Part shown: positions 4,453-55,693 of the stretch, one piece after another
Layout of the letters: each line of letters opens with the position of its first letter
Numbering within the stretch: position 1 is the stretch's first letter
Source: a virus
Direction: 5' to 3' (one strand)
Length of the DNA: 64,000 bases
Virus record (IMG/VR): IMGVR_UViG_3300022745_000026
Coordinates: 1-64,000 of that record
Translations under genes and position numbers: made by a program
The notes under the pieces: model-generated
Told to the model about the DNA's origin: nothing
What the model saw: only the letters and a program-made list of their open reading frames with translations
Databases searched by the model: none

Positions 4453-4664
4453 ACAAGCACATTATCAACCTGCACCTAAACGTCCTCAATACTACCCTGA
4501 ACGGGCCTGACCCCGACAAAGACATTGACGACATGTACATCCCCAACCGCTACGTAGACAACCTTGTTAAAGCCTTGGTTCGAGACGCAGCGGACTTGTT
4601 AGACCAATACCCTAGGGTAGATGCTTCGGCAATCTTATTGAAATTCTACGGAATCAAGAAATGA
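4449..4664 (+). CDS. Hypothetical protein (71 aa)
   Basis: A mostly helical, slightly acidic product (M-N-K-H-I-I-N-L-H-L-N). It is the last gene of the first operon block before the AP2-HNH insertion. The 3' end is followed by an AT-rich promoter-like region. No family recognised. Confidence 0.6.
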   Translation: MNKHIINLHLNVLNTTLNGPDPDKDIDDMYIPNRYVDNLVKALVRDAADLLDQYPRVDASAILLKFYGIKK

Positions 4665-4681
4665 AACTTATAAATAAGGTA

Positions 4682-4690
4682 TGCTACAAT
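4682..4690 (+). promoter_or_regulatory. Extended -10 promoter for the AP2-HNH gene at 4815
   Basis: TGCTACAAT fits the extended -10 consensus TGnTAtAaT. No convincing -35 lies 17 bp upstream, which is acceptable for extended -10 promoters. The predicted start at about 4697 is 58 nt before the terminator-like hairpin in the leader. The matching promoter of the other AP2-HNH gene has the same layout. Confidence 0.5.
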
Positions 4691-4696
4691 GCACTG

Positions 4697-4814
4697 TGAG
4701 TGGTTTTGGGCTGCCGTGACTAGACGGCATAAGCGCAAAGCTTCTCGAAGCCCGCCGCCAGGAGTCCATGCTAGTTCCATGGGTTCTCTGGCGGTTTTTT
4801 ATTGGGATAAATCC
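4697..4814 (+). ncRNA. Structured leader RNA of AP2-HNH gene (copy 1)
   Basis: Between promoter and start codon lie a 6-bp hairpin (TGCCGT 4712-4717 / ACGGCA 4724-4729), a small GCTT/GAAGC hairpin at 4740-4751 and a two-tier hairpin. The outer stem is CCGCCAG (4755-4761) with CTGGCGG (4788-4794), the inner stem CCATG/CATGG, followed by six T. The distance from the outer stem to the ATG is 20 nt. The layout matches the leader at 55,057-55,171. I infer a cis-regulatory (attenuator-like) leader; it is not a class I recognise. Confidence 0.45.
4755..4801 (+). terminator. Rho-independent terminator-like hairpin inside the HNH leader
   Basis: A GC-rich stem CCGCCAG/CTGGCGG with a bulged extension and inner CCATG/CATGG stem is followed by TTTTTTATT. 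It would stop read-through from the upstream operon and also transcripts from the promoter at 4682-4690 before they reach the endonuclease gene. Confidence 0.7.
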
Positions 4815-5315
4815 ATGAAAAAACGAAAGATCAGGGTTGAGGGCGAAGTAGCCTACGTGCCACTAGCCGGCGGACAAGAGGCAATCATAGACGCAGAAGA
4901 TGCAGAATTAGTTGAAAAATATAACTGGTGCCTTACACGAGGCTACGTGGTGACGGGGCGATTAGCTAGTAGCGGCAAACAAAGGCTCTTATACCTGCAT
5001 CGGCTTGTAATGGGGGAGCCAGAGGGCAAGGCAGTAGATCATCGAAAAGGCAACAAACTTGATAATAGAAAAGTATTCCTTCGTGTAGCTACTACTTCAC
5101 AAAACAGTTGTAACCGAGGCCCACAGGCTAACAACACCTCCGGCCACAAAGGCGTCTACTGGAATAAATCCTCAAGAAAATGGGTAGCACAAATTGTGTG
5201 TGACGGCAGGCACATTTACTTGGGTCAGTTTATAGCCCTTGAAGATGCAGCACAGGCTTACAAAGAAGCAGCACTTAAACACCACAAAGAATTTGCAAAC
5301 TTAGGAACATCATGA
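4815..5315 (+). CDS. AP2-HNH homing endonuclease (copy 1)
   Basis: Start chosen at M-K-K-R-K-I-R, downstream of the leader hairpin; upstream in-frame codons run through the hairpin. An HNH core is visible at residues ~65-105 (L-H-R-L-V-M-G, V-D-H, L-D-N-R, N-S-C-N), followed by an AP2 DNA-binding domain at ~110-160 (N-T-S-G-x-K-G-V-Y-W, Y-L-G-Q-F, A-A-Q-A-Y). Such free-standing enzymes nick or cut phage DNA at a recognition site and spread by gene conversion. It is paralogous to the gene at 55,172. Its 3' end overlaps the next start by 4 bp, so it is fitted into the operon. Confidence 0.88.
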   Translation: MKKRKIRVEGEVAYVPLAGGQEAIIDAEDAELVEKYNWCLTRGYVVTGRLASSGKQRLLYLHRLVMGEPEGKAVDHRKGNKLDNRKVFLRVATTSQNSCNRGPQANNTSGHKGVYWNKSSRKWVAQIVCDGRHIYLGQFIALEDAAQAYKEAALKHHKEFANLGTS

Positions 5316-55041: not shown

Positions 55042-55050
55042 TGATATACT
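55042..55050 (+). promoter_or_regulatory. Extended -10 promoter for AP2-HNH gene at 55,172
   Basis: TGATATACT fits TGnTATAaT. It faces right, against the surrounding late genes, so the endonuclease has its own promoter. The predicted start (~55,057) is 55 nt before the GC hairpin, nearly the same as copy 1. Confidence 0.55.
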
Positions 55051-55056
55051 GGCTTC

Positions 55057-55171
55057 AACAGCTTCTGAATACCTGTAGGAAGGGTAGAATTCAAAAGCTG
55101 TTAAAGGCCTACCGCCTGTGCTTTCGTGTTCCTACCACGGAGGTGCAGGCGGTTTTCTTTTGGAGATTGAG
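55057..55171 (+). ncRNA. Structured leader RNA of AP2-HNH gene (copy 2)
   Basis: The predicted transcript begins with AACAGCTT (55,057-55,064), which pairs perfectly with AAGCTGTT (55,095-55,102), plus inner TGAA/TTCA. The second hairpin has outer stem CCGCCTG (55,112-55,118) with CAGGCGG (55,146-55,152), inner CGTG/CACG and then TTTTCTTTT. The ATG follows 19 nt later with GGAG. Compared with copy 1, the sixth stem position changes from A-T to T-A, keeping the pair. Confidence 0.5.
55112..55161 (+). terminator. Terminator-like hairpin inside the HNH leader (copy 2)
   Basis: Stem CCGCCTG/CAGGCGG with TTTTCTTTT after it. No + strand gene lies upstream within the region, so this structure cannot serve an upstream gene; it only affects its own transcript. 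That argues for attenuation. Confidence 0.65.
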
Positions 55172-55666
55172 ATGAAGAAGAGACCGATTCGGATTGAAGG
55201 TGACGTGGCTTATGTGACCTTAGCTTGTGGGGCGGAAGCAATCATAGACGCAGAAGACGCTGAGCTGGTGGGTCAGTATAATTGGAGCCTATGCACTGGG
55301 TATGCAGCTACAAGCCTATACCCTGTCGGAGAGAAACGTAGAAGCATAAAACTGCATCGACTTGTTATGGGGGAACCTGAAGGTTTTGAAGTAGATCACA
55401 AGTACGGCATCAGGCTGGATAACAGAAAAGCACATTTGAGGCTGGCCACAAGATCAGATAATAACCATAATGCCAAGGTCCGTCGTGACAATACCTCCGG
55501 TAGGAAAGGCGTTTCGTGGCATAAAAAAGTTAAAAAGTGGTTCGCCCAAATAATGTATATGGGCAAACAAAAGCATTTAGGCTACTTTTCCGACCCTGAC
55601 GCTGCCTATGAGGCCTACTGCCAAGCAGCACTTAAATACCATGGCGAATTTGCCAGAACAGAATAA
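55172..55666 (+). CDS. AP2-HNH homing endonuclease (copy 2)
   Basis: GGAG precedes M-K-K-R-P-I-R-I-E-G. HNH core: L-H-R-L-V-M-G, V-D-H-K-Y-G, L-D-N-R-K and N-N-H-N at ~62-105; AP2 domain N-T-S-G-R-K-G-V-S-W near 110 to the end (H-L-G-Y-F, A-A-Y-E-A-Y). It is clearly paralogous to the gene at 4815 over its whole length. It is inserted between the capsid and connector genes in opposite orientation to the late operon. Confidence 0.88.
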   Translation: MKKRPIRIEGDVAYVTLACGAEAIIDAEDAELVGQYNWSLCTGYAATSLYPVGEKRRSIKLHRLVMGEPEGFEVDHKYGIRLDNRKAHLRLATRSDNNHNAKVRRDNTSGRKGVSWHKKVKKWFAQIMYMGKQKHLGYFSDPDAAYEAYCQAALKYHGEFARTE

Positions 55667-55667
55667 T

Positions 55668-55693
55668 AAAATGGCCCTAAAAGGGCCATTTTT
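55668..55693. terminator. Bidirectional terminator
   Basis: AAATGGCCC-TAAA-AGGGCCATTT has T tracts on both strands (TTTTTACTTTTT on +, TTTTATTATT on -). It ends the AP2-HNH transcript and also the capsid-side late transcript after the 63-aa gene, so joining genes need read-through or another promoter. Confidence 0.8.

Follow-up and report, generated by a model that had tools for sequence, protein, structure and literature searches.

Setting of the two AP2-HNH genes

The 64-kb stretch of DNA analysed here (the window) comes from a phage record of 72,691 bases and carries two genes for AP2-HNH endonucleases. The region upstream of these genes raises the question of whether their expression is governed by a structured leader RNA and, if so, of what kind. 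Both genes lie on the + strand and are about 57% identical to each other. Copy 1 (4815..5315) matches the Pfam families HNH_3 and AP2; copy 2 (55172..55666) matches HNH_3, with AP2 slightly under the cut-off. The same-strand gene upstream of copy 1 stops at 4664, and the stop codon of copy 1 shares bases with the ATG of the next gene at 5312. A terminator in the leader would therefore also lower expression of the downstream operon, barring other promoters. Copy 2 is oriented antisense to the structural genes. On the + strand no gene precedes it, in agreement with the initial annotation of this DNA, and the terminator scan placed a bidirectional terminator at the end of its cassette (55668..55692, + strand).

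Organization of the two leaders

The initial annotation had described the same arrangement before both genes, namely an extended -10 element, a 5' hairpin (H1) and a terminator-like hairpin (H2), followed by a T tract and, 19-20 nt later, the ATG. All of these elements were found in the sequence at the places claimed. For copy 1, the consensus scan gave a promoter at 4661..4690 (+ strand; 9/12 with TG), in which a -35-like ATGAAA (4661-4666) is followed by an 18-nt spacer before the extended -10 TGC-TACAAT (TGCTACAAT; 4682-4690). Transcription is predicted to start at about 4697. In RNA folds H1 (4697..4747) stands at the 5' end of the RNA, and H2 follows at 4754..4795 (fold -25.2 kcal/mol, z -3.8). 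The outer stem of H2, CCGCCAG/CTGGCGG (4755-4761/4788-4794), encloses 26 nt, and a T run 3' of the hairpin (4795-4800) precedes the ATG at 4815. Copy 1 H2 was not reported by the consensus terminator scan. The copy 1 leader also reads as an open reading frame in frame with the endonuclease (4689-5315, 208 codons), the ATG of which overlaps the -10 element; annotation tools may thus place the start of this gene too early.

For copy 2, the extended -10 TGA-TATACT (TGATATACT) is located at 55042..55050 on the + strand, with a predicted transcription start at about 55057; the promoter scan found no -35 element above threshold. H1 was folded at 55058..55101. H2 (55111..55153; fold -30.9 kcal/mol, z -5.5) was reported by the terminator scan and consists of 18 pairs and a 7-nt loop, followed by TTTTCTTTT. 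Its outer stem, CCGCCTG/CAGGCGG (55112-55118/55146-55152), encloses 27 nt, and the ATG is at 55172. A Shine-Dalgarno sequence, GGAG, follows the T tract, belongs to neither hairpin and is unpaired in the centroid fold.

In both copies H1 is folded with an apical 5-pair stem above a 3-nt bulge on its 3' side, and the predicted transcription start is at the base of H1. Compared with dinucleotide shuffles, the whole leaders gave z values of -4.9 (copy 1) and -5.8 (copy 2). The layout of each leader is that of an attenuator: a promoter is followed by a G+C-rich hairpin and a T tract, and the space left before the gene is too small for a second promoter. The A-T to T-A difference between the outer stems, previously put forward as a compensatory change, is indeed present. 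It is a lone change between paralogue leaders that are otherwise unalignable, and so weighs little. The case for a functional structure is carried by complementarity between the hairpin loops and by covariation in relatives, not by this change.

Complementarity between the two hairpin loops

A feature overlooked in the initial annotation is that, in both copies, the H1 and H2 loops are complementary to each other. In copy 1, segment A (GACUAG, 4718..4723) within the H1 loop and segment A' (CUAGUU, 4771..4776) within the H2 loop can form six base pairs, five Watson-Crick and one G.U. In copy 2, segment A (GUAGGAA, 55075..55081), which is kept in the related loci L012-L014, can form seven Watson-Crick pairs with segment A' (UUCCUAC, 55129..55135), which makes up the entire H2 loop. 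When both window strands were scanned blind for units in which a hairpin precedes a second one with a complementary loop and then a T tract, the copy 1 leader ranked first and the copy 2 leader second among 24 matches. H2 is followed by a T tract on the + strand, in the relatives as well as in the two window copies. Of seven leaders compared, six folded better on the sense than on the antisense strand, which disfavours a structure of the antisense strand.

Taken alone, the pairing in copy 1 was not significant (p 0.07 in a test of a 5' segment against the terminator loop, p 0.81 in an ungapped-helix test); it rests on the layout common to both copies and is weak by itself. For the relatives of copy 2, L012 and L013, the same tests gave p 0.00-0.02 and 0.057, respectively.

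The kissing form in relatives

Upstream regions of AP2-HNH genes from IMG/VR and genome collections were positive for such a unit in 17 of 227 cases, compared with 2 of 678 control segments taken as reverse complement, from gene interiors or from farther upstream (p 4e-9). Shuffled sequences reached the positive threshold in 0.1-0.3%. The kissing form, in which a 5' hairpin presents A in its loop, occurs in the window copies, L015, L194 and phages of a group described below. Its pairing sequences vary freely, e.g. GUCGCAA/UUGCGAC (L015), CCGCGAG/CUCGCGG (L194), CUCUCAC/GUGAGAG (L143), GCACUAC/GUAGUGC (L132) and others. Three loci with related AP2-HNH genes (L017-L019) have a promoter and H1 together with a large hairpin, the loops of the two hairpins being partly complementary, and lack a T tract; this is perhaps a decayed or different version of the leader.

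A long form without a strong 5' hairpin

Many AP2-HNH leaders lack a strong H1. Their 5' segment A (8-19 nt) is instead open, and is complementary to an A' that lies within the terminator loop and often adjoins the 3' arm of the terminator. This long form was missed by the first, stem-based scan and came to light among its negatives. Examples of A/A' are UGUCAGAGCUAA/UUAGCUCUGACA in L168 and UGGAACGCAGA/UCUGCGUUCCA in L178; in L334 the helix reaches 19 bp.

For terminators located 5-45 nt ahead of an AP2-HNH gene, pairing between a 5' segment and the loop gave p<=0.01 in 20 of 38 (median p 0.01); for other terminators at the same loci this value was reached by 37 of 1476 (median 0.49). The signal was weaker in 60 further loci with 14 adjacent terminators (p<=0.01 in 1/14, p<=0.05 in 5/14). 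By eye, a complementary segment was seen in most of these 14, and we think, having judged this after seeing the result, that stem prediction had absorbed loop bases. With the ungapped-helix test, 64 of 287 AP2-HNH loci had a terminator-like hairpin just upstream, and p<=0.01 was obtained for 27 of the 64 (0.6 expected) and p<=0.05 for 38, shuffle p-values counting related loci as separate. In the positives, A mostly begins about 95-115 nt upstream of the match start.

Five long-form leaders could be aligned. Two-sided changes were present at 5 of 11 A:A' pairs and at 5 of 10 pairs of the terminator stem (B:B'), 98% of the cells were paired, and none of 500 shuffles equalled either the paired percentage or the covariation score. 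A conserved CAAUYC stretch is found 3' of the terminator 5' arm in L178, L402, L141, L374 and L209; in L178, L402 and L141 a small hairpin comes next, in some cases with a loop of the GNRA type.

Covariation in a second group and genes behind its leaders

A further set of leaders belongs to phages whose hosts we take to be Bacteroidota, going by their TTG..TAnnTTTG promoter pattern. An exact match to one H1 sequence was present at 21 loci, and a search that held the H1 stem constant but allowed any loop gave 58 stretches. Where the stem belongs to a leader, the loop variants GUAGCAG and GUGAUAG, which had not been part of the search pattern, were accompanied by complementary terminator loops. 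In 25 aligned leaders the kissing helix was 95.4% paired, with two-sided changes at six of its seven pairs, and the stems of H1 and H2 likewise covaried. The whole-structure covariation score was 0.48, compared with 0.05-0.13 in slid controls. Covariation analysis, named at the outset as the check on a cis-regulatory RNA, thus gave strong two-sided covariation of the loop pairing in those leader sets that could be aligned.

The products of the genes behind these leaders include N6/N4 methylases, HTH_36 proteins, ParB-like proteins, T5orf172, HNH-helicase and AP2-HNH. There are one or two leaders per record, and in most two-leader records the pairing sequences differ (GUAGGAG vs GUAGCAG; GUAGGAG vs GCACUAC; GUAGCAG vs GUGCAAG); those of G037 are near-identical. 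Leaders with GUAGCAG and GUAGGAG lie about 2 kb apart in L223, L228, L230, L232, L236, L239 and L242, and constitute a compensated difference at one position within one genome. In genomes of this type the two leaders precede a ParB-methylase and a replication-type gene.

R1, a covariance model built on this set, found no match in the window genome. The unity of the class is therefore architectural only, and a single covariance-model family for all leaders was abandoned.

Distribution of the element and rejected identities

Most AP2-HNH genes lack the leader, and those within operons have none. The initial annotation had named AP2-HNH genes without such hairpins as evidence against its proposal; many were found, along with others that carry the leader. 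Inspection of cultured phages and plasmids, whose AP2-HNH genes are mostly in operons, did not turn up the element, and leader DNA gave no match in the phage collection. It is also absent from L001 and L016, which are closely related to copy 2. L001 (2430-2505), which occupies the genomic site of copy 2, has kept the gene and a T-rich stretch but has neither the hairpins nor the -10 element; a new -10-like TACAAT lies just upstream, making this a natural leader-less version. The suggestion that the leader travels with the endonuclease was thus not borne out, and an endonuclease-specific leader was ruled out by the occurrence of the same leader before methylases, HTH_36 and other genes.

The initial annotation had not recognised a described class in the leader. 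A search of Rfam 15, including HEARO and riboswitches, gave no window match above the gathering cut-off, and among 11 leader-bearing loci it returned two tRNAs only. Shine-Dalgarno/anti-Shine-Dalgarno pairing, considered because of the GUAGGAG in the H1 loop, was ruled out by other loop variants that lack the motif. An HDV-like fold of the long form was considered and dropped, there being no apparent equivalent of P4 or of the catalytic strand. The leader does not fit a classical attenuator with an overlapping antiterminator either, since the models that covary have A paired to bases of the terminator loop and not of its stem.

A candidate attenuator with possible gating by capture of the RNA 5' end

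The architecture common to the leaders is well supported at the sequence level. Promoter, A, B, A', B', T tract and start codon follow each other in this order, B:B' being the predicted terminator stem and A, near the RNA 5' end, being complementary to A' in the terminator loop; both helices covary. The order A-B-A'-B' corresponds to an H-type pseudoknot, with the predicted intrinsic terminator as its second stem. We regard it as probable that the leader is a cis-acting transcription attenuator with a pseudoknotted terminator, in the kissing-hairpin version in the window copies. The terminator usually stands about 10-30 nt ahead of the start codon, and the gap between T tract and start codon is mostly too short for another promoter; expression must therefore pass the terminator, which is why the element is read as an attenuator acting in cis. 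The earlier proposal of a cis-regulatory leader stands in so far as the leader is structured, ends in a gene-proximal terminator, recurs before AP2-HNH genes and covaries in relatives.

Polymerase starting from the leader promoter would mostly halt at the T tract with a transcript about 100 nt long. Since A' exits the polymerase ahead of B', A:A' can form before the terminator, and it may set how often B:B' closes in time, thereby tuning or gating read-through. A ribosome, a protein, another RNA or nothing at all might release or occupy A. We lean, by a modest degree, towards A:A' lowering rather than raising termination, the direction being a matter of inference. The 7-nt kissing loops would let both hairpins stand together, so that gating is not forced by the structure. 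The purpose might be to hold a strongly promoted cassette gene (endonuclease, methylase or replication-type protein) low or conditional. It is plausible that the leader limits downstream expression; the free turnover of its sequence leaves no obvious sensor, so that conditional control is a guess.

Alternatively, the unit could be a separate small RNA gene acting in trans via the A or A' loop, with the downstream gene fed by leaky read-through. Its targets might be other transcripts or, when a second phage superinfects, the copy of the leader which that phage carries; P4 and plasmid antisense control work in this manner. Promoter and terminator alone predict an RNA of about 100 nt, and the differing pairing sequences of several two-leader genomes look as if cross-talk were avoided. 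We nevertheless hold this to be unlikely: A and A' in one RNA would pair with each other first, a terminator placed 10-30 nt ahead of a start codon nearly always would be needless for a free-standing RNA gene, and the two G037 leaders are near-identical in sequence.

Less likely again is that the pairing stabilizes or compacts the terminated or read-through RNA, protecting its 5' end, with no control of termination. This would accord with the position of A close to the predicted 5' end, with the long-form A:A' abutting the terminator stem, and with a structure that is kept while its sequence is not, but it leaves unexplained why a terminator immediately ahead of a gene should form the core of the unit.

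An ordinary strong terminator of the upstream gene with chance loop complementarity, as the gene ending at 4664 might suggest for copy 1 and as the AP2-HNH-adjacent terminators without loop pairing in phage Slash and L215 illustrate, is very improbable given the lack of an upstream gene on the strand of copy 2 and an enrichment and covariation well beyond controls. The same low probability is assigned to leader-peptide attenuation, in which a ribosome on a short 5' ORF chooses between A:A' and B:B': an ATG lies at or near A in the long-form leaders L168, L141, L154, L057 and L142, with ORFs of about 26-36 codons to the gene start, but the ORFs differ, the frequent ATGA supplies a stop at the gene start, and such ORFs are missing from the window copies and from most leaders of the kissing form. 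The short ORFs of these five leaders and of L087 stop at the AP2-HNH start with an ATGA overlap, and may be leader peptides or due to chance.

Relation to known systems and implications

Several known systems share parts of the architecture of the candidate attenuator. The lambdoid PR'-tR' and HK022 put systems likewise combine a promoter, a short structured leader, a terminator and genes. The PR'-tR' gate needs the Q protein and put RNA needs the conserved put sequence, whereas the phage leaders have no sequence conserved across groups. Leaders with an H-type pseudoknot or with paired hairpin loops are also those of the preQ1-I and guanidine-II riboswitches, but the phage leaders have no conserved binding-site sequence and no Rfam match, and their pairing turns over freely. 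P4 CI RNA immunity resembles them in complementary segments within one leader and in premature termination; in contrast, no processed trans-acting RNA is known for the phage leader, and its A' lies inside the terminator loop.

In pT181-type attenuators, 5' leader hairpins, a gene-proximal intrinsic terminator, a kissing contact and the possibility of orthogonal sets are shared features, but their leader makes its kissing contact with a separate antisense RNA (PMC3753616); the phage leader has both partners in one transcript, one of them being the terminator loop. RNA structures just upstream of phage homing endonuclease genes, thought to limit expression, are also found in the T4 family, where hairpins of I-TevI, segB and mobE sequester the ribosome site; seg43 of Aeromonas phage 25 has a plain hairpin before the gene (PMC2988022). 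The unit described here differs in being terminator-like, and a T4-type sequestering hairpin does not fit copy 2, given the position of its unpaired GGAG. No description of capture by a terminator loop, or of kissing leaders ahead of homing endonuclease genes, was found in the literature consulted.

Terminator-loop capture stands a fair chance of being a distinct mechanism. We put forward more tentatively that the leaders form a widespread unnamed class in phages, in which the terminator loop captures the 5' end of its own RNA, by kissing between 7-nt loops or by a long pseudoknot helix adjoining the 3' arm of the terminator. Capture would then serve as an antiterminator that is topological and shares no bases with the terminator stem, and would control mobile and early genes. 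If so, an RNA could use its own 5' end to control an intrinsic terminator by way of the terminator loop; such a simple switch without conserved sequence would have been overlooked by sequence-based RNA surveys. It would explain how phages carry self-promoted endonuclease and methylase cassettes without over-expression, and the leaders would represent a large natural set of orthogonal attenuators.
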